The translations under genes were made by a program, and so were the position numbers. The notes beneath the pieces were generated by a model, which saw nothing but the letters and a program-made list of their open reading frames with translations, searched no databases and was not told the DNA's origin. Below, piece after piece: positions 44,127 to 63,272 of a stretch of DNA of 64,000 nt; the stretch's first letter is position 1, and every line of letters starts with the position of its first letter. Origin of the DNA: Paenibacillus polymyxa M1. Its GTDB lineage: Bacteria > Bacillota > Bacilli > Paenibacillales > Paenibacillaceae. The stretch covers positions 2,824,501-2,888,500 of the forward strand of contig NC_017542.1 in assembly GCF_000237325.1 (NCBI RefSeq). Direction: 5' to 3'.

Positions 44127-44180
44127 GTTCATTGTTGGGAATCAAATTCAAACGCAAATCTGATGATATCACCCTTGGTA

Positions 44181-45025: not shown

Positions 45026-45174
45026 ATAAATTCCTCCTTTCCTTAATAGTATCATTTATGACAAATGATGAAGATTGTTTTTGCCATTGTCGCTGGCTTG
45101 GTACCAATGCTACACTCCCAACATACAGGCCATCCATGATGTTCTATTGCAAAAATATACTGGAGATGATGAAT

Positions 45175-46911: not shown

Positions 46912-46988
46912 GTTTGTAGAGATTCTATAAGCTTTTTTTGAACTCGCACTAATTAGGGGGTACTTTTGGAACACGTACTTATATGGTC

Positions 46989-47012
46989 ATAGGCTATCCT
47001 TTTGAGGATAGC
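46989..47012 (+). terminator. Terminator of the GH2 gene
   Basis: AGGCTATCC (46989-46997) pairs with GGATAGCCT (47004-47012), about 77 bp after the GH2 stop codon. T-run weak. Confidence 0.65.
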
Positions 47013-47042
47013 CTCAAAATATAAAGCCGTTTTATAAACCGT

Positions 47043-47183
47043 CATCCCAATGGTAATGGCAAAGCCGGCGAAATTCCAATCTTCATGTCGGCAGGCGAGT
47101 TAGCTTTTGCGGGTGCCTTCGGAACCCCTGTCGGTTTCTACCAGGAGAATGACACCGTCAAATACGGCCCGATTATAGTTTAA
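47043..47183 (+). pseudogene. ABC sugar-binding lipoprotein fragment
   Basis: A 46-codon open piece reads HPNGNGKAGEIPIFMSAGEL then AFAGAFGTPVGFYQENDTVK and YGPIIV with TAA at 47181-47183. 'DPNGNGK.DEIP' and 'AFG.P.G......VKYGP' are signatures of the LipO-type extracellular solute-binding proteins of CUT1 transporters, such as the intact one at 57823. Both sides are missing. A repeat fragment (CCCGTTAGCTTAATAG, 47185-47200) follows directly. Confidence 0.6.
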
Positions 47184-47232
47184 GCCCGTTAGCTTAATAG
47201 CTTGTATCTTTACCATTATGAAAGCTTATTCA

Positions 47233-48165
47233 TCATGCTTCATGGAGATTAAGCTCATAAGTCTGTTCAATGTGACGTTTACCCCAAGATTCGTTTTCTT
47301 GTTCGGAAATCTTCTGAAAACCTGCTTTCACATACATGCCAATAGCCGTTTTCTGGTCCTCTGTCGTTTCCAGAAAAATGAACTGGTAACCTCTTTCTTT
47401 GCAGTAACTGATCGCCTCATGTAAAAGCTTTTTCCCGAGTCCCATTCCTCTGGCATCCGGATGCAGCATAAACCACCTTAACTGCGCTTTTTCATTAGAA
47501 TGGCTGATGATAGCTATGCTGCCAATTATTTCGCCATTGGCTTCCGCTAGCCAGAAACGGTCCTTGTCCGAGCTGTAGGTTTGAAGCAAGTCGTAAAACG
47601 TCTTGCAGACATATCCTTCAAAAAAAAGATTATAACCGCACTCCTTTGCATAGATCCATCCGTGCATATGAATGAGCATTCCTACGTCTCCTGGTTTCAA
47701 TTCAGTCCGGATGCTTACGCTCCGCTCTGTAGGATTGTCCGATAGCTCTCTTTCAATGTTAGTCATGCTTCTGGCAATGCTTACTTGGCTTTGATACGGC
47801 AATCCGATGATCATATTGCGAATCTGATTATCGGACAAGGTATTCATTTTTGACAACGTCTCCTCACCGAGACTCGACAAGTACAGAAAAAAAGATCTGC
47901 CATCCTTCTCGGATTGGACCCGGTAGATTACGCCCAGCTTTTCGAACCGTTTGAGAATCCGGCTTAAATAGCCCGCGTCGATACTTAGAAGGTCGATGAG
48001 CATTCTGGCCGTGCAATGCTCCGTGTTGCCGATTTCGTAAAGAACTCGGGCTTCCGAAAGTGAAAAATTGCTATCCAGAAGGTGCTTATCAAGCAACCCG
48101 AGCACCTTCGTGTAGAATCGGTTAAATTTGCGAATAGTCGGGATTAAGGACATTTCCGAACCCAT
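47233..48165 (-). CDS. MarR-type regulator fused to GNAT acetyltransferase
   Basis: 310 residues. Residues 1-145 form a MarR winged helix (NFSLSEARVLYEIGNTEHCT, DAGYLSRILKRFEKLGVIYR, QSEKDGRSFFLYLSSLGEET); residues 155-305 a GNAT domain (FWLAEANGEIIGSIAIISHS, LHPDARGMGLGKKLLHEAIS with the RGxGxGK acetyl-CoA loop, MYVKAGFQK). This fused pair recurs in Firmicutes, presumably linking regulation to acetylation of an unknown metabolite. AGGAGGC lies 7 bp before ATG 48165. The strong promoter upstream overlaps two palindromes, so it is probably autoregulated. Confidence 0.88.
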   Translation of the reverse strand: MGSEMSLIPTIRKFNRFYTKVLGLLDKHLLDSNFSLSEARVLYEIGNTEHCTARMLIDLLSIDAGYLSRILKRFEKLGVIYRVQSEKDGRSFFLYLSSLGEETLSKMNTLSDNQIRNMIIGLPYQSQVSIARSMTNIERELSDNPTERSVSIRTELKPGDVGMLIHMHGWIYAKECGYNLFFEGYVCKTFYDLLQTYSSDKDRFWLAEANGEIIGSIAIISHSNEKAQLRWFMLHPDARGMGLGKKLLHEAISYCKERGYQFIFLETTEDQKTAIGMYVKAGFQKISEQENESWGKRHIEQTYELNLHEA

Positions 48166-48672: not shown

Positions 48673-48704
48673 GCTCACAAGCCATAATCCTATGGCTTGT
48701 GAGC
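48673..48704. terminator. Hairpin beyond the secreted GH32 gene
   Basis: GCTCACAAGCCATA (48673-48686) pairs perfectly with TATGGCTTGTGAGC (48691-48704) over a 4-base loop. It lies about 165 bp past the stop of the minus-strand gene and is the best candidate for the end of the fructan cluster transcript, although no T-run follows. Confidence 0.6.
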
Positions 48705-48867
48705 ATTAAATTAAATACACTCTTATCTCCCATCCAAATAAAAATTGATTCAGTTTCGTTTTACAAGTACCTGCCCTTCTCCTTTGCCATTTCGAATGAC
48801 AAGCTATCTGACTATTCGGTTTGCTCGGAGGACTACAGGACTCACGGGTATTCTGTATTAACAAGAG

Positions 48868-51800
48868 TCAGTTGTTGGTTTTCTTCTTTACCTGAACAGG
48901 CACATTAAAATCATCGACATTAATATGTCCAAACCCGCCTTTGGATTGGTCGACCACCTTTATATAAAGCTCCTCGCCGATATAATCCGACGCATCCCAA
49001 ATCTTCCGTTGATATTCCTCATAATTGGTTGCTGTCTCTTTAAATAACTCTTTGCCGTCCGACGCCCGAACCAGCGCAACATACAGACGATCTATATCCC
49101 GGCCGCCGCTGATAAGGAAGTTGATCTTACCGTTCCCACCAAGGACGAAATTTTGAGATCTTAGCGATCCGGTTAAGCTATCGCCGCCGGCTTGCTCGTT
49201 GAAGCCCCACAAATGGTAGCCGCCCGGAATTTTATGCGACGGGTTGAAGTAAATGTTGTCCCAGAAGAACTGGGTATTGGTCACATGGACATTCTGGAAG
49301 GCGTCTCCTTCCGTTATCCACCCCGTTAAGTCGCCCGTAGCAAAATCATGGTTAGGCAGCTCTGTAATATCCTTATACACAGAATTATCCCACTTATCGG
49401 GTACATAGACCGGAGCAGCCGGTTTACCCGTTAAAGCATTCATATCCCATACTTGCATGGATTTGATATTGATATCGCCATCGGCCCAGACCTGTAAGCC
49501 TAAGGAGTCGTATCTGCCTATATAGACACGAGTTGTCAGCTTCTTCTTGTAATTTGCAAAGGCTTCAATGACCGAGCGATCGAGAAAGATATGGAGTTTC
49601 AAGTTCTCTCCTTTAAGATCTACATATCCTCCTTGAATGCCGTCCACACGCACATCCGGATCAATGCTGCTCTTGGTTCGATCCACGTTAAATGTCCCGT
49701 TCTTCTTGTCGTAGTAAATGAGCGTCTCTTCTTGGCCTTTTTCCGAGCGTCTCACCTTGAGACCAAATTTCTGGGCTTCACGCGGATCAATCTCCATCAC
49801 AATCTCTAGCATGTCGCCTTTGACATTCTTAATCAATTGATTGGCACTCTCCAAATTTTTGTCCGAAAAATCAACCCACTTTTTCCCTCGAAGACTCTGC
49901 AGTTCTTTAATCGGTTCGATATGCAATTTATCATGCTTATCGAGGCTTAGGGAAACCGGCAAAGATAAATTATGAGCCCATCCGGATTGATATTCAGCTT
50001 GCGGTGTTCTAACATTTTGCACCATGGAGAATACGACCGTTCTTCCGTCGGGTGTGACCAGACCGCTCTCTGCGGTTAAATAGCCGTCACCTACATCCAT
50101 TTTGGAGGGTGCCTCCTGATCAGGAATAAATTTAAAGTTATCCCGGTCCCAGGTCCCGATCCAGTAAAAGACCTCAACATCTCTTTGCACATCGTTCGCT
50201 GGAGGAACATGCTCCGGCTTTTCATGGGGATTAATCATGAAAATATATTTTTGCTTGCCCGTACTATCCGTGCCTAACGGCAATAACACTGGTAACTCCC
50301 ATACCGTACCCAACTCCGGATAACGGCTTCTGTCACTAACGTATAAAGGCCCCTTATATTCCCAATTGTACATATCATCGGATACATACACCAAAGCTGT
50401 GCCGCTGCTGAAGTCTGGAAGACCAGATGTCACTAACTGATACCACTTGTCCACCTCTTTGTCGTACCATACAAACGGATCGCGGAACTCGTTGTGGATG
50501 CCTTTTCCGTTCTGCTCCGTTACCGGTTTAGGATATTTCACCCATTTTTCCAAATAGGGATCGGACAAATCCGCCGGAGTTGCCAACCCTGTTCTTTGGT
50601 TCGGCGACAAGGAGTCGTTGCCAGCGGTATAGAACAGAACAGGATTGCCGTTTCGATCATACGCTGCACTGCCTGACCACGTGCCGTCCGGATCTAGGGT
50701 GCCCGCTTCGGGCACAAGAGCAGGTCTTACATTTTCCCAGTTCACCATATCGTCACTCACCCAATGCCCCCAGTGGATTTGATGCCAGAATGGACCTTGC
50801 GGGTTATGTTGATAAAATAAATGGTATTTGCCGTTATAGTAAATCGGTGCATGTGCTTCATTCATCCAGTTTTGCGGAGGCATCGCGTGGTACTGGGGTC
50901 GGTGCTGATCTCCGTCAAACACACTTGGATCCTCATCAATGTCCGCATTCGGAATTTTCGGAATTGAACCTCCATGAAGCGCCTTCACGCCCTCATATCC
51001 AGCAAGTATCTCCTGGTTCGTAAGGGCTTTATTATGCAGCTTCACTTCATCTAGGAGTCCGCTGAACATATTGAAGGAGAACACCCCTGCTAACTCTACA
51101 GGTTTATTATTTTTCCCGATGATCAGGCTTTCGGTAGATGGTGTGATCGGAACGTTGAGGGGGGTTACTTGGGAAGCCACTTCCTCACCGTTTAGATATA
51201 ACTTAATTTTTCCATCTTCTTTACTGAAAGTAGCGGCCACATAATTCCACTTGTATTTTTCCAACGGGTGATCCTTTACCCATACCTGAATCCACTGACC
51301 GCCAATGCCTACTTGCATCGACCATGTACCGTGCCGATACATACCAAGAGAAAAGCCTTCCGCTTTATCCTGGTCGGATTGGTTTACGATCGCAGACAGC
51401 TTGTTTCCGTCTCCCCACTCATAGCTACGCGGTGCAACCCAAGCTTCGATGGTTAACGCGTCGCTTACAGGCACAGTATCGTTTGCATTGACCTCAATAT
51501 AATTCGAGTATCCATCGAACAATAAGGCGCCGCCTTTTATTCCGCGCGGAGTCCATCTCGGATCCTTCGATGCCATATACCTGGCGTTGTTAAATACATA
51601 GTTCACATCGTGCTTAAGATTGTGTACTTTCTCCAACGCCTTCTTTCCTGTGCCTTCATCAAGGTTTAAGTAGAAAATAGTACCCTTACCACTTGCTTGG
51701 AAACTATCAACGGCAATGCTGGCTTCATTGGAATGATCGACAACCTTTACATAGAGCTTCTTGTTGTAGTGTTCTTGCACTTTCCATGAGATTTTCTCGT

Positions 51801-52869
51801 TCGCACTGACATTCCCGGTTTTCATAAGCAATGTATTGCTGTTCGCATCGTAAAGTGCAACATAGGCGTTTTCTGGTTTGAGGATATCCAAAACAGTAAA
51901 GTTAATCGTTCCGGTTCCCTGAAGCGTGAAAGTATTAGAAGTGATGGAGCCCTTTCCTTGCAGGGAGGATTTGGCATAGAAGTTCCCTTCTTTGCTCGCA
52001 TGAGCTTCATCAGTCACTTCAAAAGCATCTCCCTCAACCGTCCAGCCATCGAGATTTCCGGTTTCAAAGCTTGGATTATCGATTTCATAGCGCTTGAAAT
52101 CTGGCTTGATATCTGTCGCAACAAATCCTTCAGCTGGCTCCGACTCATGGTACATGGAGAATGCGTCCGCAAAAATGACTCCCCAATCCGAGGTTGCATT
52201 ATCGACGACCTCCACATACAGTTTCTTGCCCAAATATGTGGAAAGATCCGCCTTGTATTGCACCATATTGGCAAGCCGCATGCCCAGCGCGGGATCTGGG
52301 AAGCCCACGTCGGCGAATGCGCTATTTCCGTATCGGGCAATAACTTGTCCCGTATCGACTTCCACAATATTTATAAATACCTTGTCTGGGTTCTTCGCAC
52401 CGCCAAGCCTGAAGCTGATCCAGCCGCTGCCACCCAGCACGAAAGTGCTGGAATGGAGTATACCTGTCGCAGATTCGTCATACTTCCAGCCGTTTAAATG
52501 ATAAGCTCCTTCCTGGTTATACGGTATTTTTTCCGCCCACCAAGTCGTTTCGTCGGTTACGCTATTCGGACCGAACGCATCGCCTTTGACAACGGTCCAT
52601 CCCGTCAAATCTCCTGTTTCAAATCCAGGATTCCGGATTTGATAGACTGAATCCGGAACTGACAATCCCATGTCATTCTTAGGAATATTCTTGATTTGAT
52701 AAATCGTATCCGTAACCGATGATTTCACATCATTCTTAGGAATGTGCGTTTCTCCAGCAACAGTTCTATTTTCGGATGCGACAGAGATTCCCGGAACAAC
52801 AAGCTGGAGAACCATAGCCCATATAACCATTCCCAATATCCAACATTTTCCTATTTTGACTTTCCTCAT
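48868..52869 (-). CDS. cft: Secreted GH32, probable cycloinulooligosaccharide fructanotransferase
   Basis: 1333 residues from ATG 52869 (GGAGG upstream). Signal peptide (ILGMVIWAMVLQLVVPGISV), then two related carbohydrate-binding-like modules starting NPGFETGDLTGWTVVKGDAF (about 45-230) and NPSFETGNLDGWTVEGDAF (about 235-385), a LamG domain (about 390-630), the GH32 five-blade propeller and beta-sandwich (about 660-1150), and a third module (NHDFATGDLTGWITEGDAFQ, about 1165-1325). The GH32 triad would be Glu671 (WMNEAHAP), Asp797 (EFRDPF) and Glu858 (WELP); the first is Glu where most GH32 have Asp in WMNDPNG. The size equals what I recall for the Bacillus (Paenibacillus) macerans CFTase, which makes cyclic inulooligosaccharides from inulin. 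An exo- or endo-fructanase is the alternative. Own operator at 52976. Confidence 0.8.
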   Translation of the reverse strand: MRKVKIGKCWILGMVIWAMVLQLVVPGISVASENRTVAGETHIPKNDVKSSVTDTIYQIKNIPKNDMGLSVPDSVYQIRNPGFETGDLTGWTVVKGDAFGPNSVTDETTWWAEKIPYNQEGAYHLNGWKYDESATGILHSSTFVLGGSGWISFRLGGAKNPDKVFINIVEVDTGQVIARYGNSAFADVGFPDPALGMRLANMVQYKADLSTYLGKKLYVEVVDNATSDWGVIFADAFSMYHESEPAEGFVATDIKPDFKRYEIDNPSFETGNLDGWTVEGDAFEVTDEAHASKEGNFYAKSSLQGKGSITSNTFTLQGTGTINFTVLDILKPENAYVALYDANSNTLLMKTGNVSANEKISWKVQEHYNKKLYVKVVDHSNEASIAVDSFQASGKGTIFYLNLDEGTGKKALEKVHNLKHDVNYVFNNARYMASKDPRWTPRGIKGGALLFDGYSNYIEVNANDTVPVSDALTIEAWVAPRSYEWGDGNKLSAIVNQSDQDKAEGFSLGMYRHGTWSMQVGIGGQWIQVWVKDHPLEKYKWNYVAATFSKEDGKIKLYLNGEEVASQVTPLNVPITPSTESLIIGKNNKPVELAGVFSFNMFSGLLDEVKLHNKALTNQEILAGYEGVKALHGGSIPKIPNADIDEDPSVFDGDQHRPQYHAMPPQNWMNEAHAPIYYNGKYHLFYQHNPQGPFWHQIHWGHWVSDDMVNWENVRPALVPEAGTLDPDGTWSGSAAYDRNGNPVLFYTAGNDSLSPNQRTGLATPADLSDPYLEKWVKYPKPVTEQNGKGIHNEFRDPFVWYDKEVDKWYQLVTSGLPDFSSGTALVYVSDDMYNWEYKGPLYVSDRSRYPELGTVWELPVLLPLGTDSTGKQKYIFMINPHEKPEHVPPANDVQRDVEVFYWIGTWDRDNFKFIPDQEAPSKMDVGDGYLTAESGLVTPDGRTVVFSMVQNVRTPQAEYQSGWAHNLSLPVSLSLDKHDKLHIEPIKELQSLRGKKWVDFSDKNLESANQLIKNVKGDMLEIVMEIDPREAQKFGLKVRRSEKGQEETLIYYDKKNGTFNVDRTKSSIDPDVRVDGIQGGYVDLKGENLKLHIFLDRSVIEAFANYKKKLTTRVYIGRYDSLGLQVWADGDINIKSMQVWDMNALTGKPAAPVYVPDKWDNSVYKDITELPNHDFATGDLTGWITEGDAFQNVHVTNTQFFWDNIYFNPSHKIPGGYHLWGFNEQAGGDSLTGSLRSQNFVLGGNGKINFLISGGRDIDRLYVALVRASDGKELFKETATNYEEYQRKIWDASDYIGEELYIKVVDQSKGGFGHINVDDFNVPVQVKKKTNN

Positions 52870-52975
52870 TCTCGAGCCTCCTTCGAAACTTGTTATACTT
52901 GCGAACATCGATACCTCATTTCGAAATGCTCTCCTTGTACAAAGATGAATAGTCATGAAGAAGGGAGAATATGAA

Positions 52976-52988
52976 TGAAACGTTTCCA
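52976..52988. promoter_or_regulatory. LacI-type operator upstream of the secreted GH32 gene
   Basis: TGAAACGTTTCCA, a near-perfect palindrome identical to the sites at 61474 and 61654. It lies 107 bp upstream of ATG 52869 and probably overlaps the promoter of this gene. A CcpA-type (cre) reading is possible because cre sites share the AANCGNT core. Confidence 0.75.
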
Positions 52989-53058
52989 AACGGAGGAATG
53001 CAAAGTTTCTTGATCATTTGTGCATACCCCATTCGTAAGGAGCGCCTAAACAACCGTC

Positions 53059-55332
53059 TTACCAAATGGACTGCATATCCCATATATCCAAGGATTTAAC
53101 AAACGGTTCTCCATCTCCCCAAATCTCGAGTCCCAAAGCATCCATACGGCTCGGATATACCCGGGTTGTCAGGCTTTTCAATCCGTTTGCATAGGCTTCG
53201 ACCATGGAGCGATCCAAATAAATGTGGAGCTTCAGATTTTCCCCAAGTAGCTCCAACTTTCCGCCTTGAACCCCTCCACACTTTTCTCCCGGGTGCAGCG
53301 TCGTTTTCGACCGGTCGACCAAGAGCATCGTTTGATTCCAATCATAATACAGCAGAGTTTCTTCCTCTCCGTCCGGCGTACAACGGACCTTGACTCCGAA
53401 TTTTTTGGCGCTGCCGGGCTCCAATTCCAATTGAATCTCAAGCATGTCACCATGAACATTCCTAAGCTGCACATTAGTTTCAGCCAATGACTGGTCCCGA
53501 AGCGATAGCCGCTTAGGGCCACGCAGCGATTGAAGCTCCTGAATCGGCTCTATTCCCAGACGCCCGTCATCCCTCAAATACACGCTTAACGGCAAGCCTC
53601 CGTTATGAGCCCAACCCGACTTATATTCCATCTCAGACGTCCGGTCGCCTTGGGCTATCGTAAAGACGATATTTCTGCCGGTCTTCGGATCAACCATTCC
53701 GCTCGGTCCGGTAAAATGGAAATCCCCGACATCAATCAATTGAGGCTTTTCTTGATCGGGGATGAACGAAAGATTTTGCTTGTCAAGTTGTCCGATCCAA
53801 TAGAACACCTCGACATCTGCTCCTTTTCCCACAGGGCTGACAAGCAGCAGATGTTTGTTCACCCCCAGCTTGTCCCTGCCAAGGGGAAGAAGCACAGGGA
53901 GCTCCCAGATGGGTCCAAGGTAAGGAAACTTCTGAATATCCGCTTTAAAAAACGGCCCTTTATACGTCCAATTCAGCATATCTTGTGACGCAAATGCCAG
54001 TGCTGCTCCACCTTCAATTCCGGACCCGACCAAAGCGTACCAGCCGTCATCGTCCTTCCATACGAATGGATCTCGGAAATCCCCAAATGCGCCCATTCCC
54101 TTCTTCTGCACGATCAACGGCTCTGGATGTTTGACCCACTGAACCAGATCCGGGTTTCCGTCAAGGGTATAAGTGCTTCGGGCAAGCGCTACGCTCTGAT
54201 TCGGAGAAGCGCTGTCATTACCTGCCGTAAAGAACAAGACAGGAAGTCCGTCAGCATCATAGGTTGCGCTTCCCGACCAGATCCCGTCCGGTGCGAGCTG
54301 ATCCTTTTCGGGCGCCAGGGCCACGGGTAGATCACGCCAATGCACCAAATCCTGACTTACCCAATGTCCCCAATGGATCTGATGAAAGAACGGCCCCTGC
54401 GGGTTATGCTGATAGAACAAATGATATTGCCCGTCAAAATAGATTGGTGCATGGGGTTCGTTCATCCAATGGGCCGGCGGGCTAACATGATATTGCGGTC
54501 TGTGCCGATCAAGTAGCAGTGGCGTCCGGTCTAGCTTGATCTCGTCATAGTTTAATTGTGGCCGGATACCTTCATGAAAGGTGTCCAGCACATGACGATA
54601 AGAAGCGGCCACTTCTTCCGCGCTCAGCGCCCGATTATAAATCTTGAGTTCATCAATGATACCGCTAAACATGTGAAGGCTGAACACTTCCGCCAGCAGG
54701 CTGCTATGGTTATTCTTGCCAATCAGGAGATCTGTTTCCGCCGCCTCAGCCAGACGGGAACCACGAGGCACGGCAGCTGAAGCGATTTCACTGCCGTTTA
54801 AATACAGCTTGATTTCCCCTTGGTTCCCATCGAACACAGCATTCACGTATGACCATGCATTCTTGGGCAGTTCATGGCCGTCCGGCGACCAAAGTTCCTT
54901 CCAGTCTCCTCCTTCCAGCCCGACTTGGAAGGACCAGGAACCGTGACGGAACATGCCGAGCAGATAACCCTGCTTGCGATCCAGGTTGTAGCGGTTCACG
55001 ATGGCGGATAATTTGCCATCATCCCCCCATTCATAGGAGCGTGGGGCTACCCATACTCCTATGCTTAACGCTGATCGGTACTCTGGCTCGGTGTTCTGAT
55101 TTCCCTCATCGAACGAATGCGCAATGTAAGTCGAATAACCATCGAACAGAAGCCCATTTCCAATTACCCCCTGTCTCCACCGTGGAGGGCAAGGTTGAGT
55201 AAACTCCGCTTGGTTAAATACGTACTGGATATTATCCTGGACTTGGGATACGCTCTCCAGAGCGCTTGTGCCGGTTCCTTCATTGAAGGCCCAATACATA
55301 ATCAATCCCCGATTATCGGTTGCATGGCTCAT
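53059..55332 (-). CDS. Intracellular LamG-GH32 enzyme, CFTase-like
   Basis: 757 residues, no signal peptide. LamG-like domain at 1-250 (MYWAFNEGTGTSALESVSQV, WVAPRSYEWGDDGKLSAIVN) followed by GH32 catalytic and sandwich domains. It is a cytoplasmic homologue of the LamG-GH32 core of the secreted enzyme. The same active-site change is seen: Glu292 (WMNEPHAP), Asp421 (DFRDPF), Glu477 (WELP). It has none of the three carbohydrate-binding modules. Start ATG 55332 overlaps the fusion gene's stop (ATGA) and has GGAGGG in that gene's end, so it is translationally coupled. Likely role: opening or hydrolysing imported cyclic or linear inulooligosaccharides (inference). Confidence 0.82.
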   Translation of the reverse strand: MSHATDNRGLIMYWAFNEGTGTSALESVSQVQDNIQYVFNQAEFTQPCPPRWRQGVIGNGLLFDGYSTYIAHSFDEGNQNTEPEYRSALSIGVWVAPRSYEWGDDGKLSAIVNRYNLDRKQGYLLGMFRHGSWSFQVGLEGGDWKELWSPDGHELPKNAWSYVNAVFDGNQGEIKLYLNGSEIASAAVPRGSRLAEAAETDLLIGKNNHSSLLAEVFSLHMFSGIIDELKIYNRALSAEEVAASYRHVLDTFHEGIRPQLNYDEIKLDRTPLLLDRHRPQYHVSPPAHWMNEPHAPIYFDGQYHLFYQHNPQGPFFHQIHWGHWVSQDLVHWRDLPVALAPEKDQLAPDGIWSGSATYDADGLPVLFFTAGNDSASPNQSVALARSTYTLDGNPDLVQWVKHPEPLIVQKKGMGAFGDFRDPFVWKDDDGWYALVGSGIEGGAALAFASQDMLNWTYKGPFFKADIQKFPYLGPIWELPVLLPLGRDKLGVNKHLLLVSPVGKGADVEVFYWIGQLDKQNLSFIPDQEKPQLIDVGDFHFTGPSGMVDPKTGRNIVFTIAQGDRTSEMEYKSGWAHNGGLPLSVYLRDDGRLGIEPIQELQSLRGPKRLSLRDQSLAETNVQLRNVHGDMLEIQLELEPGSAKKFGVKVRCTPDGEEETLLYYDWNQTMLLVDRSKTTLHPGEKCGGVQGGKLELLGENLKLHIYLDRSMVEAYANGLKSLTTRVYPSRMDALGLEIWGDGEPFVKSLDIWDMQSIW

Positions 55333-57797
55333 ACTTCAACCCTCCTGGATGTCTGCTCCGTTGGACCATTAGGAATATGAATGGAGTTAAGAGCATGCAT
55401 ATAAAACGAGTTCACTACAACTTCCCCTGATTTCGCACTTATCTCAATACGATCCATCGGAGCATCAGGGAATATTTGATCCGTCAGTGCAACCAAGCCC
55501 TCATTCGCGTACACTTCAACCGCGTTGCGATCCAGCCAGATATGCAGCTTGATCTTCCCATTCTCCGAAACCATTCTAGCACCGTGCTTGCACGCAAACG
55601 ATGGATGGAAATCAGTCAGGCCCGATTTCGAGCGGTCGATGAATAGCCATTGGCGCACAGGGTCATAACCGATAATAGTCTCACTTTGCCCAGAGGACTT
55701 CATTTTAATATGAACCTCGTCTTCGGAACGAATGTCGATATCCGCTTCAATTTCAAGCAGAACATCATTCGTTTTTTGCGTAAACGGCACCTCTGGCGTA
55801 ACCTTAACCTCATTCCAGCAGAGCGTTCCTTTCCGCAGTTGCTCTATTTCCCGAACAGGCATTTGGGTCAGAACTACGCCCTCGTCTCGGCTGGTCAATG
55901 ATAAGACGCGAGGCAGAGTCATTGTGCCTCTCCAGGCCCCAGTAGGCGTTTGGTTAGCATATTTCCAGTTGCTCATCCATCCGATGATCACACGCCGTCC
56001 GTCCTGCTCAGCTATATCCGACCAGGTGACCCCCGCATAATTGTCCCGGCCATAATCCAGCCACAGGATATGATCGGCCGGATGGTCATTGATGAACGTA
56101 TTTCCGTCGAACTCTCCGATAAAGTATTGCGTGCGTGAGCCTTCCGGGCAGTTGGGATTATCTCCGATGCTTATGATAAGTACCCATTTGGAATGTCCGC
56201 TGTCATCAACCGGCAATTCAAAGAGATCAGGGCATTCCCAAACTCCGTCATGCGAGCCTTCACTCTTTCCGAATTCGCCTGACAACGACCATTCACGCAA
56301 ATTGTCGGAACGATAAAACCGAACGTGGTCTCCCGCGACAAGAGCCATAATCCAGGATTCACTTGACGAATGCCAGAACACCTTGGGGTCCCGGAAGTCG
56401 ACCAGATCATGCTCGTCGAGTATTGGGTTCCCCTCATATTTGTGCCAAGTTCGGCCTTTATCGCTACTATAAGCCAGGCTTTGCCGCTGGCGAGGTTGTC
56501 CGGTCTCCGGACAGCTGTCTGCATGAGTGAAGAGTGCGATCAATCCATGGGAACCATCGAACAGTCCGCTGCTATTATTCCAGTCAACCACACAGCAACC
56601 AGAGAAAATTGCGCCATGCTCATCCGGGAACAGAGCGATAGGCATATGCTCCCAATGAACCAGGTCTTGGCTTACAGCATGACCCCAGTGCATTGGTCCC
56701 CATTGGTTACTATAAGGATGGTGCTGATAAAACAGATGATAGACTCCTTCGTAATAGACTAATCCGTTGGGATCATTCAACCAATGGGAGTGAGGTGAAA
56801 AATGAAAACCCGGCCTAAATCTATCATCATCGTGCTGTTTATTTGTCTCGATTATCTGGGTAATTTCATCTGTCGTCGGCATAGATTGAAGAGCCCCTTT
56901 CCGTGTGGTTACTAATGCACCGCCGGCATTAGCAAAAGTTAGCATACCGATGATTTGCTGTTTGGTCAGCTGATTCAAAGAAATACCGGCTTTCAGTATC
57001 TTATATAACAAGCAGCCCAGAAAAGCGTCGCCGGCTCCTGTCGTATCAGTGACCTCTACTTGAAAACCCGGCACATATCCGTCATGACCCACTAATCGGT
57101 AATAACAGCCTTTTTCCGCTAAAGTTACGAAGATCCCGGCGATGCCGAATTGCTGTTGCAACTCTAGCGAGCCTTTTTCCACATCAGTTGTACCCGTTAT
57201 AAAGTGGAGCTCATCTTCTGATATTTTCAGGATGTCGGCATACTTCATGCCCCAAAGGATATTCCGTTTCGCTTCCTCTTTACTCTCCCATAAAGCAAAC
57301 CGGATATTCGGATCGAATGAAAGCAGGACTCCTGCCTCTTTAGCCTTCACAACTGCCGCTCTTGTTGCCGTACGGGCCGGCTCATGGGTCATCGACAAAG
57401 AACCAAAGTGCAGTGCATGGCAGTTTTCAATCCTATCGAACGGGACATCCTGCGTGCGCAAGTATGTATCCGCTCCTGGTTTCCGGTAGAAGCTGAACGA
57501 TCGGTCTCCGTTGTCATCCAGATGGACAAATGCCAGCGTTGTATTAGCTTCATCTGTAAACGTAAGCGCAGACACGTCGATGCCGCCGTTCATCAAGGTA
57601 TCGTGCAGCAAGGAACCGAATTGATCATCCCCTACTTTGCTAATCAATGTCGCTCTAGCTCCTAAACGGGATAGAGCAGCTGCTACGTTAGCCGGAGCCC
57701 CTCCAGGATTGCATTCAAACTGTTCGTTGCCTCCCGCTGTACGACCTGATGGCGTAAAGTCTATCAATACTTCCCCAATGGTTATTACATCAAGCAC
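55329..57797 (-). CDS. Fructokinase / GH32 beta-fructosidase fusion
   Basis: 822 residues in one uninterrupted frame. Residues 1-315 are a PfkB sugar kinase (DVITIGEVLIDFTPSGRTAG, NPGGAPANVAAALSRLGARA, and the phosphate-site DTTGAGDAF with catalytic Asp257). A short linker (NKQHDDDRFRPG) leads to residues 330-822, a GH32 enzyme with all canonical residues: Asp342 (WLNDPNG), Asp470 (FRDPK) and Glu521 (WECPD). It has no signal peptide. It should release fructose from fructans and phosphorylate it. Most relatives have these as separate adjacent genes, so this is a gene fusion. It follows the binding-protein gene by 25 bp. Confidence 0.88.
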   Translation of the reverse strand: MLDVITIGEVLIDFTPSGRTAGGNEQFECNPGGAPANVAAALSRLGARATLISKVGDDQFGSLLHDTLMNGGIDVSALTFTDEANTTLAFVHLDDNGDRSFSFYRKPGADTYLRTQDVPFDRIENCHALHFGSLSMTHEPARTATRAAVVKAKEAGVLLSFDPNIRFALWESKEEAKRNILWGMKYADILKISEDELHFITGTTDVEKGSLELQQQFGIAGIFVTLAEKGCYYRLVGHDGYVPGFQVEVTDTTGAGDAFLGCLLYKILKAGISLNQLTKQQIIGMLTFANAGGALVTTRKGALQSMPTTDEITQIIETNKQHDDDRFRPGFHFSPHSHWLNDPNGLVYYEGVYHLFYQHHPYSNQWGPMHWGHAVSQDLVHWEHMPIALFPDEHGAIFSGCCVVDWNNSSGLFDGSHGLIALFTHADSCPETGQPRQRQSLAYSSDKGRTWHKYEGNPILDEHDLVDFRDPKVFWHSSSESWIMALVAGDHVRFYRSDNLREWSLSGEFGKSEGSHDGVWECPDLFELPVDDSGHSKWVLIISIGDNPNCPEGSRTQYFIGEFDGNTFINDHPADHILWLDYGRDNYAGVTWSDIAEQDGRRVIIGWMSNWKYANQTPTGAWRGTMTLPRVLSLTSRDEGVVLTQMPVREIEQLRKGTLCWNEVKVTPEVPFTQKTNDVLLEIEADIDIRSEDEVHIKMKSSGQSETIIGYDPVRQWLFIDRSKSGLTDFHPSFACKHGARMVSENGKIKLHIWLDRNAVEVYANEGLVALTDQIFPDAPMDRIEISAKSGEVVVNSFYMHALNSIHIPNGPTEQTSRRVEV

Positions 57798-57822
57798 AGT
57801 TTTCTCCCCACCTATCGTTTGA

Positions 57823-59448
57823 TTATTTATTTTTTAAATTTGCATTATATCGGTCCAACCCTTTTTGATAGATTTCCATTAATTCGTTTAGCCCCATCTT
57901 CTCGAGTGTCTTCACATAGCTGTCCCACTTTTCATCTACCTCGCCATCGACGATGAACTTGCCTCTTTGGGTATTTACATATTTAATAAGTTCTGGCTCG
58001 ATCCGATTGATTTTATCTAGTTCGTCCGGTTCAAAGAAGATGCTCGGATAGTTTTCCTTTTTCATATATGGAGTGTAATATTTCTCCAAATACTCAGCAC
58101 GCTTCTGAGCTCGGGGTTCCATATCAACAACTTTTCCGAAGTCATCGAAAGTAATGACGCCCGGATTTCCTGTGCCAGGAGCCACTTTTTGGCGGAATTC
58201 ACCTGCGGAGACTCCTTGGGGAAGCGGCAGGTTCACCATTTTTCCTTTTTCGTCCTTCTTGAATACGACATCCAACGGACCCCAGTGAATTTGAGCCGCC
58301 ATGTAAGGGTCATACTGTTGATCGATCCAACGCATCGTCATTGCCGGATAACGGTTCTCTTTTGTAATCACAAAGCTACCTCGTCCCGGACCGCCGCCGT
58401 TGTTGCGACCAATCATTTGATCTCCATTTGGGCCTTTAAGCGGGGGGAGCAGAGCATAATCCTTACTACGCTCCGGTCCGACAACTTCTTCAACTTCCCA
58501 CCAAACGTAGGAGCCGAGCGTTTCATCTAGTGTTTTGCCTTTTGCTAAATACTGAGCGGCATCCTGGGTGAACGATTCAGGGTCAATCAACCCCTGCTTA
58601 TACCAGTTATCATGAATATATTTTAATGCTTCCTTATATTGAGGTTGCGAAGCGGTAAAGATCACTTTACCTTCGCGGACGATCCGATGTTCCAAATTAT
58701 CCGGAATACCGAAAGCACCGAATATGCCAGCAATGTCACTACACCACTGCATGTGCATAAAGCTTAATGGGATTTCATCAGCCTTGCCATTGCCGTTCGG
58801 GTCCTTCGTTTTAAAGGCAATCAAAGCCTGCGTGTATTCGTCCAGCGTTTGAGGTACTTTTAAACCCAGTTTATCGAGCCAATTTTTATTGATGACGTGA
58901 AAGAAGGGGTTGGTATCGAGCTTATTCTCTTCCCACGACGGCAGCCCATAGATGTGACCGTCTGGTGCTGTGATGGCTAGTTTAATGTCAGGCCGACGAT
59001 CAAGAAGCGCTTTCAAATTAGGCGCATATTGATCAATTAAATTCTCCAGCGGAATAATGGTTCCGTCTTTACCGTAATTGATTAGCTCGTAATCTGTGAA
59101 TCCGGCTCCGTAAAAGGCATCTGGCAAATCTCCGCTGGCCAACAACAAATTTTTCTTTTCTGCAAAGTCAGTGTCCGGAATGTTTTCCCAATCAATTTTT
59201 ACGTTTGTTTGTTTTTCCAGCCGCTTAAATATTTCCATTTTCGAGTAATCTGGCGCTAAAGCAGCTTTTGGGGACACCATCTTTAATGTCACCGCTTTTT
59301 TAACAATCGGAAGACCGGTTTTATTAAAATTTGCATCCTGATCCGGATTCACCGTCTGATTTTTTGACTCGCCACCGCCTCCCGAACATCCGCTAAGAGC
59401 AAACACTCCAGCCAGCATTAGAATTCCAGCCCTTTTGAATAATTTCAT
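57823..59448 (-). CDS. Sugar ABC transporter substrate-binding lipoprotein
   Basis: 541 residues from ATG 59448 (GGAGGG upstream). Lipobox FALSGC (Cys about 21) then a Gly/Ser stretch. The large binding protein is of the LipO/YtcQ type common in Paenibacillus (TVKMVSPKAALAPDYS-like start, DPNGNGKADEIPLSFMHMQW). It would capture oligosaccharide at the membrane and pass it to the two permeases; no ATPase gene is nearby, so a shared MsmX-type ATPase is expected. Together with the enzymes around it, fructo-oligosaccharide or cyclofructan is the likely ligand. Confidence 0.87.
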   Translation of the reverse strand: MKLFKRAGILMLAGVFALSGCSGGGGESKNQTVNPDQDANFNKTGLPIVKKAVTLKMVSPKAALAPDYSKMEIFKRLEKQTNVKIDWENIPDTDFAEKKNLLLASGDLPDAFYGAGFTDYELINYGKDGTIIPLENLIDQYAPNLKALLDRRPDIKLAITAPDGHIYGLPSWEENKLDTNPFFHVINKNWLDKLGLKVPQTLDEYTQALIAFKTKDPNGNGKADEIPLSFMHMQWCSDIAGIFGAFGIPDNLEHRIVREGKVIFTASQPQYKEALKYIHDNWYKQGLIDPESFTQDAAQYLAKGKTLDETLGSYVWWEVEEVVGPERSKDYALLPPLKGPNGDQMIGRNNGGGPGRGSFVITKENRYPAMTMRWIDQQYDPYMAAQIHWGPLDVVFKKDEKGKMVNLPLPQGVSAGEFRQKVAPGTGNPGVITFDDFGKVVDMEPRAQKRAEYLEKYYTPYMKKENYPSIFFEPDELDKINRIEPELIKYVNTQRGKFIVDGEVDEKWDSYVKTLEKMGLNELMEIYQKGLDRYNANLKNK

Positions 59449-59573
59449 CGTACATACCCTCCCTATGTCAGTCCACAAGCTGAGAACTTCCCTTGTCCTT
59501 GTTACTTTATTTGTCTAAATGCTGAATTTATGGTTTCTGTTGCACATTCCCCCTTTCAGGCACCCTGGCAATG

Positions 59574-60470
59574 TTAGCCTTTGATCGAGCCGATCATCAC
59601 GCCTTTTACAAAGTATTTTTGCAGGAAAGGATACAAAATCAGCAACGGTAGGCTGGATACCATGATGACACCATATTTGATAAGCTCTGTAACGCGCATC
59701 TTTGCTGCGTAGGATTCCACATCGATCATCATGCTCGAGTTGGCCTGATTCTGGACAAGAATGTTGCGAAGGACCAGTTGTAATGGATACTTGCTTTCAT
59801 CGTTTAAGTAAATCAAAGCGTCAAAGAAACCATTCCAGAACCCGACAACATGATACAGTACCATTACGGCTATAACGGACTTAGACAAAGGCAATACAAT
59901 GCTCCAAAAAAATCTGGTATTGGAACAACCATCAATGGAAGCGGCCTCCCACATTTCATCCGGGATGGTCGACTGAAAAAAAGTCCTTACGATAATGACA
60001 TTAAACACACCTCCCGCTCCAGGAATAACAAGTGCCCAGATCGTATTCAGCATATGAAGATCTTTGATCAGCAAATAGGTTGGGATCAACCCCCCACTAA
60101 AAAACATGGAGATCAGTAAAAACCACATTATCACCGGCTTTCCAGCCAGTCCTTTACGGGCTAACGGGTAAGCTGCACATACGGTCACGGCAACTCCGAT
60201 TAAGGTTCCTAGACTCGCATATAAAATCGAATTGGCATATCCAATCCATATAGATGAATCGCTGAATATTCGCCCGTATCCATCCAGCGTAAACCCTTTT
60301 GGAAAGAACCATACTTCACCTGAGTAGATGAGATTGGGGTCACTGAGTGAAGCAATCAATACAAAATACAGCGGGAATAATACAAGCAACATAACTATGG
60401 TCAGCATGACGTAGTTGATGATGTCAAACCATAAGTCTCCTTTACTTTTTCTCTTTAATAATTGATTCAT
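59574..60470 (-). CDS. CUT1 ABC transporter permease, YtcP/LplC type
   Basis: 298 residues, six transmembrane helices. The ATPase-contact EAA loop is EAASIDGCSNTRFFWSIVLP. It ends QKYFVKGVMIGSIKG, typical for the LplC/YtcP group. It pairs with the permease at 60484, 13 bp away. Confidence 0.9.
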   Translation of the reverse strand: MNQLLKRKSKGDLWFDIINYVMLTIVMLLVLFPLYFVLIASLSDPNLIYSGEVWFFPKGFTLDGYGRIFSDSSIWIGYANSILYASLGTLIGVAVTVCAAYPLARKGLAGKPVIMWFLLISMFFSGGLIPTYLLIKDLHMLNTIWALVIPGAGGVFNVIIVRTFFQSTIPDEMWEAASIDGCSNTRFFWSIVLPLSKSVIAVMVLYHVVGFWNGFFDALIYLNDESKYPLQLVLRNILVQNQANSSMMIDVESYAAKMRVTELIKYGVIMVSSLPLLILYPFLQKYFVKGVMIGSIKG

Positions 60471-60483
60471 AATGATCTCCCCC

Positions 60484-61437
60484 TTACCACAGGCTGGTTT
60501 CCGTCAATTTTTTTGCGATCCGGTTGACGGTGACTATCAGGATAATATTTACAACCGAATTAAACAGGCCAATTGCTGTAGAAAAGCTGTATTGTGCTTT
60601 TTGGATCCCAATTTCATAAACGTAGGTCGGAATAATATTGGAGGTGGCATAATTCAAATCGTTCTGCATAAGGAAAGCCTTTTCAAAACCGATGCCCATA
60701 ATGTTGCCGAGTGCGAGAATCAATAAGATGACGATCGTCGGCAAAATGTTTGGAATATCCACATGCATTACGCGCTTCCATTTGCTTGCTCCATCCATGA
60801 TCGCCGCTTCATGCAATTCCGGATTGACCCCTGCCAAAGCTGCAAGGTAAATGATGGTAGCAAAACCTGTCTCTTGCCAAACCCCTGATAATATATACAA
60901 AGGACGGAACCACCCTTCGTCGGCCAAAAACATAATGGGGTCCCCTCCAAACCAAGTGATGATGTGATTCACAATTCCGCTGTTTGGAGACAGAAAAACA
61001 TTAAGCATACCGACGAGCACTACGGTAGAAATAAAGTGTGGTGCATAAATTACAGTTTGTACAATTTTCTTGTATCTCTTGGCCAGCATCTGATTGAGCA
61101 TAATTGCTATAATAATCGGAGCTGGGAAGCTAAATACAAGCGATAGAACACTGAGTGTAAGCGTATTAGTCATGATCGTCCAGAAGTTATAGGAATCGAA
61201 AAAATCAATAAAGTGCTTAAAGCCTACCCACTCGCTTTCCCAGATTCCCCGACTTGGTGAAAAATCCTTAAAAGCAATTTGTATTCCATACATCGGATAG
61301 TACTTAAATACGAGATAAATAATAATGATTGGCAGCAAAAACAAATACAGTTCATAATCGCGTTTGATCTGGTTCCATATTTTGCGATTTGGCTTAATCG
61401 TGGAGTGATCTAATTCGCTAATTTTTGTATTCACCAT
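60484..61437 (-). CDS. CUT1 ABC transporter permease, LplB type
   Basis: 317 residues from ATG 61437 (AAAGGGA upstream); the longer frame is rejected because it would run through the operator. Six transmembrane helices; the EAA loop is HEAAIMDGASKWKRVMHVDI. N-terminal FLLPIIIIYLVFKYYPMYGI and IAFKDFSPSRG are family motifs. First gene of the transporter-enzyme operon, with a LacI-type palindrome 37 bp upstream. Confidence 0.9.
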   Translation of the reverse strand: MVNTKISELDHSTIKPNRKIWNQIKRDYELYLFLLPIIIIYLVFKYYPMYGIQIAFKDFSPSRGIWESEWVGFKHFIDFFDSYNFWTIMTNTLTLSVLSLVFSFPAPIIIAIMLNQMLAKRYKKIVQTVIYAPHFISTVVLVGMLNVFLSPNSGIVNHIITWFGGDPIMFLADEGWFRPLYILSGVWQETGFATIIYLAALAGVNPELHEAAIMDGASKWKRVMHVDIPNILPTIVILLILALGNIMGIGFEKAFLMQNDLNYATSNIIPTYVYEIGIQKAQYSFSTAIGLFNSVVNIILIVTVNRIAKKLTETSLW

Positions 61438-61473
61438 TACATTCCCTTTCTTGACATAGGATATTTTCATTTT

Positions 61474-61486
61474 TGAAACGTTTCCA
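61474..61486. promoter_or_regulatory. LacI-type operator before the transporter operon
   Basis: TGAAACGTTTCCA. On the minus strand it follows TTTATATCAAAT, so it would sit just downstream of a -10-like sequence (TATATC) and repress the operon starting at 61437. Confidence 0.75.
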
Positions 61487-61559
61487 ATTTGATATAAAAA
61501 AACGTCAATCGGCAGAGCCATACATGAACCACCGATTGAATTCGAGTTTTTCTAAAATC

Positions 61560-61665
61560 AAAAACAATCTTGTCTAAAAAAACGGGAAGACGATGCATTT
61601 GTTGATCCAAACTTATTCCTTTGATCTTTTAACAAAGTAGTTTCATCTCCAAATGAAACGTTTCC
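61560..61665 (-). pseudogene. Scar of a second LacI gene (C-terminal tail)
   Basis: Minus-strand reading gives KIKGISLDQQMHRLPVF, which aligns with the intact regulator's end KMDGITLDQQVYRLPVIFRQ. The DNA is also similar (ACGGGAAGACGATGCATTTG against ACGGGGAGACGATACACTTG). A stop codon precedes it. This is a tandem duplicate of the LacI gene with almost everything deleted. Confidence 0.7.
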
Positions 61666-61666
61666 A
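61654..61666. promoter_or_regulatory. LacI-type operator, second copy
   Basis: TGAAACGTTTCCA, same sequence as at 61474. On the minus strand it follows TATAATAAAT, a good -10 context. The two promoter-operator units are 180 bp apart. Confidence 0.75.
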
Positions 61667-61745
61667 ATTTATTATAAAAAAATGACGAGTTTATAGATTC
61701 AAACAGAGATCCAACTGAAATGAGCTAATATCTTTACATTTAAGA

Positions 61746-62714
61746 TCATGTCGTTTCGCCTTGCCTGAAGATAACGGGGAGACGATACACTTGCTGATCT
61801 AAAGTTATACCATCCATCTTTTGATACAGCAGTCTGATTGTCATACGTGCCATTTCCTCCACTGGCTGCCTGATTGTGGACAATATCGGATGAAAATAAG
61901 GATGATTCTGAATCCCGTCGTAACCGATGACCTTTACATCCTCTGGAACGCGAATACCCTGCCTGCCTACTCTTTCTATATATTTAGCGGCTAACATATC
62001 GGTAATAGCGAAAATGCCGTCCACATCCTGATACTTATGTAGAAATTCGCTAAAATAGGCATCGTCGTTCACAATAGGGTCTGGTTTCTCGTATACAACA
62101 TAGTCGACACCTAATTTTTTCGCCTCATCAATGAAACCTTTTCTTCGATTCATGGTTTCACTAAATACGGAAGTTACACTTCCTATAAAAGCCGGCCTCT
62201 GGGCTCCCGCTTTAATAAGTTCCCTTAAAGCCATACTCCCTCCCTTATAATTATCCGAGGTCACACAGGTAATTTTTTTGCTAAAGTGTCTGTCAATACT
62301 TACAATCGGAATGTCATTGCTTATGCTATTCTCAATATCATTGTAGGTAATGCCGACAATTCCAGCCACTTTATTTTGCCGTAGCATATCCAGATAATAC
62401 AGTTCCTTTTCGGGCTTGCCACCGCTATTACATAGCATGAGCTTAAAGCCTTCCCTATCCAACTCATCCTCAATGTAATAAGCCAGTTCAGAAAAAAAAG
62501 GATTCCAGATACTTGGAAGTAGCAAGGCTACCATCTTGGATTTCCTCATCTTAAAATTTCGAGCGACTTCATTAGGGATATAATTCAATTCTTGTATAGC
62601 TTTTTCCACCTTATGGCGTGTATCTGGTTTTACAGAGCCCGAGTTGTTAATAACACGGGAAACAGTTCCCACAGCTACGCCAGCCAGGTTAGCGACATCT
62701 TTAATACTTGGCAT
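61746..62714 (-). CDS. LacI-family transcription regulator
   Basis: 322 residues. LacI helix-turn-helix at 1-25 (SIKDVANLAGVAVGTVSRVI), hinge (NYIPNEVARNFKMRKSKMVA), and a periplasmic-binding-protein-like sensor domain (PSIWNPFFSELAYYIEDELD, VPEDVKVIGYDGI). Local repressor of the fructan cluster, expected to release DNA upon binding a fructo-oligosaccharide or phosphate. Its own upstream region carries TGGAAACGTTTCA at 62758. Divergent from nothing intact; the XerS remnant begins 130 bp away. Confidence 0.92.
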   Translation of the reverse strand: MPSIKDVANLAGVAVGTVSRVINNSGSVKPDTRHKVEKAIQELNYIPNEVARNFKMRKSKMVALLLPSIWNPFFSELAYYIEDELDREGFKLMLCNSGGKPEKELYYLDMLRQNKVAGIVGITYNDIENSISNDIPIVSIDRHFSKKITCVTSDNYKGGSMALRELIKAGAQRPAFIGSVTSVFSETMNRRKGFIDEAKKLGVDYVVYEKPDPIVNDDAYFSEFLHKYQDVDGIFAITDMLAAKYIERVGRQGIRVPEDVKVIGYDGIQNHPYFHPILSTIRQPVEEMARMTIRLLYQKMDGITLDQQVYRLPVIFRQGETT

Positions 62715-62757: not shown

Positions 62758-62790
62758 TGGAAACGTTTCAATAATCTTTGAAACGCTTTT
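62758..62790. promoter_or_regulatory. LacI-type operator plus half site before lacI
   Basis: TGGAAACGTTTCA (62758-62770), the same palindrome in the other orientation, followed by TGAAACGCTTTT (62779-62790), which resembles a weaker half site or a CcpA cre box. Autoregulation of the LacI gene is likely. Confidence 0.7.
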
Positions 62791-62846: not shown

Positions 62847-63272
62847 ATGATAAGCCAGCTTCCTGATCTTTCTCCTTCTTCACTACTCGAATACATATAT
62901 GATTATGAAACCTTCTTTAACTATCTTCTGGCTGAAGGACTTACTCCTGCTGGCCCTATTAGTCAAATTCCGTTAGAAACTCTTGAGAAGCTTTCATTGG
63001 ATTCAATTCTCGGATATAGATTTCATCTTCTCACCAAAGCAGGAAACTCAAGAACGACAGTATCAAGAAAGCTATCATCGCTTCGAACTTTATTTAATTA
63101 CTTGAATCAAAAAGCTGAGGACGAAAACTTCAATCCTTTACTAATTGGAAATGTGATGGCGAAAGTTGATATTTGCAAAAAGAAGAAATCTAAGTATACA
63201 GCAGCTAGCATCCTAGCTGGGAAATTGCTTCGAGATAATGAGATTACTGAATTTGTGGAATATATAAATTAA
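62847..63272 (+). pseudogene. XerS-like tyrosine recombinase, N-terminal part only
   Basis: 141 residues: LPDLSPSSLLEYIYDYETFF, PLETLEKLSLDSILGYRFHL, SRTTVSRKLSSLRTLFNYL and NPLLIGNVMAKVDICKKKKS. These match the core-binding (SAM-like) domain of XerS-type chromosome dimer-resolution recombinases, which are about 355 residues. The first ~25 residues and the entire catalytic domain (R...H-x-x-R...Y) are missing. It abuts the DUF4180 stub at about 63280. Cannot catalyse recombination. Confidence 0.78.

Follow-up and report, generated by a model that had tools for sequence, protein, structure and literature searches.

A candidate pathway for the formation, import and opening of cyclofructans encoded in Paenibacillus polymyxa M1

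Gene content of the locus

We analyzed a 64,000-nucleotide stretch of Paenibacillus polymyxa M1 (contig NC_017542.1, positions 2,824,501 to 2,888,500; hereafter the window), and in it a locus that an earlier reading of the sequence, here called the original prediction, had taken for a complete candidate pathway of cyclofructan (cycloinulo-oligosaccharide) production, uptake and breakdown around a cycloinulo-oligosaccharide fructanotransferase (CFTase). The list of open reading frames (ORFs) and a domain search of the window reveal seven co-directional genes on the minus strand, extending from position 62714 down to 48868:

61746-62714, minus strand: LacI-family regulator, 322 amino acids (aa); PF00356 and PF13377
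60484-61521, minus strand: CUT1-type permease 1; PF00528
59574-60470, minus strand: CUT1-type permease 2, 298 aa; PF00528
57823-59448, minus strand: lipoprotein solute-binding protein (SBP), FusA-like (class G), 541 aa from ATG; PF01547, lipobox LSGC by eye
55329-57797, minus strand: fusion of a fructokinase (PfkB) and a D-type GH32 domain, 822 aa, GTG start; domain search
53059-55332, minus strand: LamG-GH32 enzyme, 757 aa, the proposed ring-opener (hereafter the twin); domain search
48868-52869, minus strand: secreted CFTase (LamG and GH32), exactly 1333 aa from ATG; domain search, signal sequence by eye

Coordinates, strand and domains all agree with the original prediction, as does the exact length of the secreted GH32 enzyme. 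No signal peptide was seen by eye in the fusion or in the twin, which is predicted to be cytoplasmic; the twin gene shares four bases of its start with the stop of the preceding fusion gene. The fusion matches the NCBIfam fructokinase and scrB families, each under its own cut-off. The true start of permease 1 is probably close to 61437 (317 aa), because a copy of the operator described below lies inside the longer ORF and the orthologue in one relative (G139; labels G and L denote genomes and loci) has 317 aa. By domain search none of the seven genes encodes an ATPase; a UgpC/MsmX-type ATPase scoring above the curated cut-off is encoded elsewhere in the genome (G000:C1:187485-188585). A LacI orthologue heads the operon in many Paenibacillus loci. 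A chance gene neighbourhood was rejected, since the same gene set recurs across the loci and genomes of relatives.

Identification of the secreted enzyme

Enzymes of the CFTase family convert inulin into the rings CF6-CF8 by intramolecular transfructosylation. The secreted enzyme is 98% identical over 1333 aa to its best named match, 'cycloinulo-oligosaccharide fructanotransferase [Paenibacillus polymyxa]', and its residues 76-1329 are 85% identical to O52973 of Niallia (Bacillus) circulans, the value being 88% for residues 380-1180. The name of O52973 starts with 'cycloinulo' in nr and is beta-fructofuranosidase in UniRef. The architecture comprises a signal peptide (an N-terminal hydrophobic secretion signal, by eye), a CBM38-like N-terminal region, LamG (452-621), the N- and C-terminal GH32 domains (661-986 and 989-1142), and a C-terminal repeat. 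The CBM38-type region ahead of LamG-GH32 is recognized by the alignment of residues 76-1329 to O52973, and an assignment to CBM38 has been published for the N-terminal part of the CFTase from P. macerans (PMC10076258). Formation of rings of six to eight fructoses is described for CFTase, with B. circulans, B. polymyxa and B. macerans named as sources (PMC4835578).

On the strength of these alignments we regard the identity of the secreted protein as settled: it is a CFTase, as originally predicted. The comparison with characterized CFTases that was proposed along with that prediction gives CFTases, not ordinary levanases, as the closest named homologues; the 98% and 85% identities rule out an ordinary levanase.

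A Glu-type active site common to the CFTase and the twin

The catalytic nucleophile of GH32 enzymes is the Asp of the WMNDPNG motif. The fusion conforms to it (WLNDPNG), whereas neither the CFTase nor the twin does: their motifs are WMNEAHAP and WMNEPHAP, with Glu aligned at the nucleophile position.

50857-50859, minus strand: codon of Glu671 of the CFTase, at the GH32 nucleophile position by alignment
54457-54459, minus strand: codon of Glu292 of the twin, at the GH32 nucleophile position by alignment

The further catalytic positions are kept in both proteins (D797 and E858 in the CFTase, D421 and E477 in the twin), and Pfam GH32 models match both strongly despite the Glu. All eight remaining GH32 proteins of the genome, the fusion among them, have Asp at this position. 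The twin is 51% identical to the CFTase over LamG and GH32, and E292, D421 and E477 are conserved in 48 of 48 aligned twins.

Among the 120 matches listed of 1202 in a search with the CFTase, the motif is WMNE in 115, its place relative to the CFTase having been checked by alignment for a single two-domain protein; in the other five, the aligned domain carries WTNE (one protein) or WQNE (four). A quickly built tree of 55 GH32 domains has one branch, with SH-aLRT support of 100, that separates 44 Glu rows from 11 Asp rows, with a program warning of long branches where the two sides meet; the WQNE domains (proteins P0102, P0112, P0113 and P0116) were missed by the motif pattern and are not among the Glu rows. 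When 10 sequences each of CFTases and twins were set against 11 Asp enzymes, the alignment revealed 28 further columns, three of them gaps, in which CFTases and twins agree against the Asp enzymes. CFTases and twins also differ from each other in many columns (10 versus 10 sequences), with a cluster around CFTase residues 929-952. By motif, alignment and tree, the CFTase and the twin are members of one Glu-type GH32 clade, which is new here, and the Glu may be the actual nucleophile in both. To our knowledge, the only characterized members of this clade are CFTases.

Both kinds of domain also occur in single chains. Bacillales proteins of approximately 1790-2050 aa (L041, L042, L043, L044, L046, P0102, P0112, P0113 and P0116) combine a D-type GH32 domain with a CFTase-like Glu-type one, in either order.

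Operators and regulation

The sequence TGGAAACGTTTCA has four exact copies in the 6.23-Mb genome (two contigs), every one of them in this locus, as found by exact match search:

62758-62770, plus strand: operator in the lacI promoter
61654-61666, minus strand: operator upstream of permease 1
61474-61486, minus strand: operator within the 5' end of the long permease 1 ORF
52976-52988, minus strand: operator between the twin and the CFTase

With one mismatch allowed, none of 100 shuffles of the window reached four matches, and the whole genome holds 16 sites versus six for the reversed pattern. Among relatives, 39 of the 44 loci having a LacI match carry a site upstream of lacI when no more than one mismatch is tolerated. 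Two of the five others begin inside lacI (L012 and L022), and the remaining three (L024, L104 and L105) have LacI proteins that are 28-29% identical. Permease 1 is preceded by such a site in 21 of 50 loci. The shared operators of the original prediction were thus recovered, the same sequence standing before lacI, permease 1 and the CFTase gene. We rejected the possibility that it is a CcpA catabolite-responsive element (cre), because the spacing is unlike that of the cre consensus and exact copies are found nowhere outside the locus. The LacI protein would control the whole set, CFTase included, by binding at TGGAAACGTTTCA.

In the gap between lacI and permease 1 (61474-61660), a second stretch resembling the 3' end of lacI, accompanied by another copy of the operator, was noticed by eye; it looks like the outcome of a duplication of about 180 bp.

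Linkage of the CFTase, twin and SBP among relatives

A CFTase orthologue (77-100% identity) was found in 51 of 394 genomes of the family, where the best two or three candidates per genome were scored with E cut-offs of our own choice (1e-100, 1e-250 and 1e-140). All 51 have a twin-type gene adjoining the CFTase gene or one gene off, as well as an SBP match in the genome. The distance between twin and CFTase ranges from 38 to 4325 bases in 50 of them; in the other, G331, one gene lies between. Overall, the SBP (E<=1e-140) is present in 98 genomes and the twin-type enzyme (E<=1e-100) in 99, with an overlap of 98 versus 24.6 expected under independence, an expectation that ignores relatedness, which inflates the association. 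At these cut-offs a twin-type enzyme occurs without the SBP in G015 only, and the SBP never occurs without a twin-type enzyme.

A set of 32 loci with a CFTase of at least 75% identity (L009-L040; 31 from Paenibacillus and one from Cohnella, L032 and L035 being from one genome) overlaps with the 51 genomes and is not independent of them. In each of the 32, a Glu-type protein of 700-794 aa is encoded upstream of the CFTase; its identity to the twin of the window is 57% or more in 30 of them and 47-50% in L022 and L027. The kinase-GH32 fusion is found in 24 of these loci and a separate GH32 in the other eight, near a ROK-family kinase in L024. Some genomes carry two copies of the locus (L032 and L035; contigs C84 and C122 of G219), one of them with a broken SBP frame.

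Near the cassette in L011, genes for a DUF2961/GH172-family protein of about 555 aa (L011:14886-16556) and a divergent GH32-like protein of about 474 aa (L011:16553-17977) were observed. Such extra genes also occur in L010, L012, L034, L037, L038, L091, L099, L100 and L105, and the 474-aa protein has matches, some of them weak (26-48%), in 19 of the 32 CFTase loci and seven of 17 CFTase-less loci described below. These genes bear on the possibility that other small cyclic fructans, such as difructose dianhydrides (DFAs), are the substrates of the six-gene cassette, and that the CFTase was recruited later. DFA I is a substrate of the enzyme that founded family GH172 (PMC8605356), and a DUF2961/GH172 gene is present in seven of the 32 CFTase loci (one weak match) and in six of the 17 without CFTase (two weak, 26-30%). 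The lack of a GH172 match in the fetched stretches of the other 25 CFTase loci, and the lack of any GH91 match among the seven operon proteins in the domain search, make this possibility a highly improbable one; the genome of the window also gave no DUF2961 match, a weak point since control genomes were equally silent.

The cassette without the CFTase

Of the 63 genomes having a twin of at least 79% identity (partial in G168), 45 possess the CFTase and 18 lack it. After exclusion of G245 (71% complete, with a CFTase-like ORF reaching the contig end), 17 CFTase-less genomes remain, three of which are single-contig (G139, G048 and G249). All 17 retain the order LacI, two permeases, SBP, GH32, twin, with LacI proteins only 28-29% identical in L104 and L105 and a GH32 devoid of the kinase part in L094, L095 and L099. 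E292, D421 and E477 are retained by every one of the 17 twins. The homology of G139 to the window covers positions 62803-52988 and ends exactly at the operator before the CFTase.

In G048 and G060, both 99% complete, only two GH32 genes were found, the fusion and the twin, and thus no secreted GH32 is encoded. Their own GH32 enzymes therefore cannot start on inulin outside the cell, and these bacteria would import what others release, a statement that covers the GH32 family. Their gene content fits the scavenging of cyclofructan, and equally that of linear fructo-oligosaccharides.

On a tree of 48 twins, 31 with and 17 without a CFTase (the long-branched twins of L022 and L027 being left out), presence of the CFTase changes 10 times, eight of the changes being forced by well supported branches. 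Such a pattern resembles that of a trait of variable benefit. Together with the active-site type common to CFTase and twin, it could speak for cyclofructan being mainly something other than food (a stress protectant, metal binder or signal) that the cassette recovers later, or even for a twin that cyclises inside the cell. We find this improbable, as an operon with a CUT1-type importer, a fructokinase and a regulator suits catabolism better. Moreover, strain LX16 is reported to show its highest CFTase activity with inulin, though the CFTase of that strain is described as a dimer of 56 and 45 kDa, unlike the 1333-aa protein (PMC4835578).

The importer

The closest solved protein to the SBP is PDB 5g5y/5g60, matched over residues 54-537 with 387 bits. 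The entry 5g5y is FusA, the SBP of Streptococcus pneumoniae for fructo-oligosaccharides, which was solved with nystose and has a cavity of about 2218 cubic angstroms (PMC5287374). The match includes an EF-hand-like stretch seen by eye, and both the sequence relation and the larger size (541 aa) place the SBP with the FusA-type class G proteins. This likeness speaks for an importer of fructans that could accommodate larger ligands.

It equally favours an alternative in which the substrates are linear. According to it, a FusABC-type importer of linear fructo-oligosaccharides works with two cytoplasmic fructosidases, the twin being a hydrolase of linear inulo-oligosaccharides, and the CFTase is kept for its side reactions, with cyclofructan as a by-product. 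The nearest solved SBP with its linear nystose, the persistence of the cassette in the 17 CFTase-less genomes, and some Bacillales loci in which a twin-like gene lies close to genes for large proteins, probably secreted and equipped with a D-type GH32 domain as well, are all in line with it. We nevertheless consider it rather unlikely. The active site of the twin is of a type otherwise known to us from characterized CFTases only, and for linear chains the fusion already supplies a D-type GH32. The linkage described above, with twin and SBP in 51 of 51 CFTase genomes and a twin-type enzyme in 98 of 98 family genomes having the SBP, also argues against it.

A second SBP type, 47-51% identical and accompanied by other regulators, stands beside the same twin in other species; for the one protein of this type that was tested, the best match is likewise FusA, which again suits linear substrates. 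In six loci (L010, L013, L038, L104, L105 and L107, where L013 and L107 come from an identical or near-identical genome), the SBP, permeases and fusion, and the regulator where seen, are of the second, divergent type, whereas the twin is 81-87% and the CFTase, where present, 84% identical. Importers thus swap and the twin stays. The distance correlations are 0.60 for CFTase and twin and 0.03 for CFTase and SBP, values of little weight given the few swapped operons and the loci of the same genomes.

Proposed pathway and its weighing

We favour, as the probable function of the locus, a cyclofructan pathway of three stages: making, importing and opening the ring. Outside the cell, the CBM38-carrying CFTase would bind inulin and excise the cycloinulo-oligosaccharides CF6-CF8 by intramolecular transfructosylation. 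The FusA-like SBP, with a large cavity, would cooperate with the two permeases and a shared ATPase of the MsmX type to take in the ring, which the twin, with a Glu-type site like that of the CFTase, would open to a linear inulo-oligosaccharide. From their domains, the D-type GH32 part of the fusion is expected to free fructose and the kinase part to form fructose-6-phosphate, and the LacI protein would govern the set, CFTase gene included, through the TGGAAACGTTTCA sites. The gene content, the CFTase identity by sequence, the Glu-type site, the linkage and the operators are the observed basis of this scheme; ring import, ring opening, binding by the regulator and the order of the steps are what we infer from them.

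Several observations weigh against the scheme, beginning with the linear fructo-oligosaccharides bound by FusA (PMC5287374) and the cassette of the 17 CFTase-less genomes, which needs no CFTase of its own. The twin lacks about 10 residues of a CFTase loop near 884-893, so that linear substrates are possible for it. Just eight of 33 loci have a site (no more than one mismatch) in the interval from twin to CFTase, and the CFTase may therefore be transcribed from an upstream promoter in other loci. The CFTase match contains a stop codon in two of the 51 genomes (G152 and G384), the twin of G168 is partial, and the SBP of G331 lies about 40 kb away from the CFTase. Finally, L054 of P. terrae has a partial CFTase (corresponding to window positions 48704-50357, 92.5% identical) and no cassette in the fetched stretch.

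The original prediction had also proposed an import and catabolic half for cyclofructans. That half indeed forms one unit tied to the CFTase and sharing its operator, while ring import and ring opening by the twin keep the standing of proposals. An SBP binding only linear sugars had been named as grounds for abandoning the idea, and the closest solved SBP, with its nystose, raises this objection in part. The argument that a cyclic sugar withholds food from competitors is complicated by the 17 relatives with the import half and no producer gene.

More tentatively, and with somewhat less than even confidence, we suggest a wider picture. A Glu-type GH32 subfamily may be devoted to cyclic inulin, its secreted members closing rings and its cytoplasmic members opening them, with a dedicated importer; relatives that many times lost, or never had, the ring-maker would have kept the cassette, and cyclofructan would be a currency common to soil producers and scavengers. 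The locus offers a testable answer to the question of bacterial cyclofructan use and names a candidate ring-opener and importer. It also points to a GH32 subfamily with what appears from alignment to be a different residue at the nucleophile position, and the producer and scavenger genotypes constitute a natural test of whether cyclic sugars keep food from competitors.

Flanks of the locus

A perfect hairpin follows the CFTase gene:

48673-48704, minus strand: 14-bp hairpin 3' of the CFTase, candidate transcript end; by eye, no clear T run

The downstream neighbours (44129-48165) are an AraC-like ORF (by eye), a GH2 enzyme (45058-46911) and a MarR-GNAT fusion (47233-48165), for which the ORF list and domain search gave no sign of operon membership. 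On the other side, a short ORF (62847-63272) matches a phage-integrase N-terminal SAM-like domain with 24.0 bits against a cut-off of 22.3, no single stretch of the match being below 0.001. This ORF and the abrupt ends of the G139 homology are hints of a mobile island.

Comparison with known systems

Like the CFTases of B. circulans (O52973), P. polymyxa and P. macerans, the enzyme of the window is a secreted GH32 protein with a CBM38-type N-terminal region and LamG, and it shows no notable difference from them. The CFTase papers, in the parts cited here, describe the enzyme and its product, not genes of uptake or catabolism. Cyclofructans are products of Paenibacillus-type enzymes. Most cyclofructan papers, among the matches listed, concern chiral separations, and in the titles and abstract openings of those matches we found none on uptake or breakdown and none stating a bacterial use. 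The SBP resembles S. pneumoniae FusA over residues 54-537, with the difference that FusA was solved with a linear sugar (PMC5287374) and a cyclic ligand is proposed here.

Three-stage pathways have been set out for cyclodextrin, cyclic maltosyl-maltose (CMM), cycloalternan, DFA III and DFA I (PMC8605356, section 15); cyclofructan is not named among the sugars of that section, and the string 'cycloinulo' is absent from the main text of the paper. As in the cyclodextrin, CMM and cycloalternan pathways (PMC8605356), a secreted cyclising enzyme, an importer and a cytoplasmic predicted hydrolase are encoded together at our locus. In contrast to these, the sugar is a fructan, and the ring-maker and the proposed ring-opener are related GH32 enzymes of the Glu-type clade. 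The DFA III pathway of Arthrobacter and of the Blautia GH91 cluster and the GH172 pathway for DFA I offer a similar combination of proposed ABC import, internal opening and a final GH32 step (PMC11538131, PMC8605356). Their rings are disaccharides opened by GH91 or GH172 enzymes, whereas the rings proposed here comprise at least six units and would be opened by a GH32 enzyme. By this comparison, the system appears to be the known three-stage strategy applied to cyclofructan, with ring opening by the twin as its proposed step.

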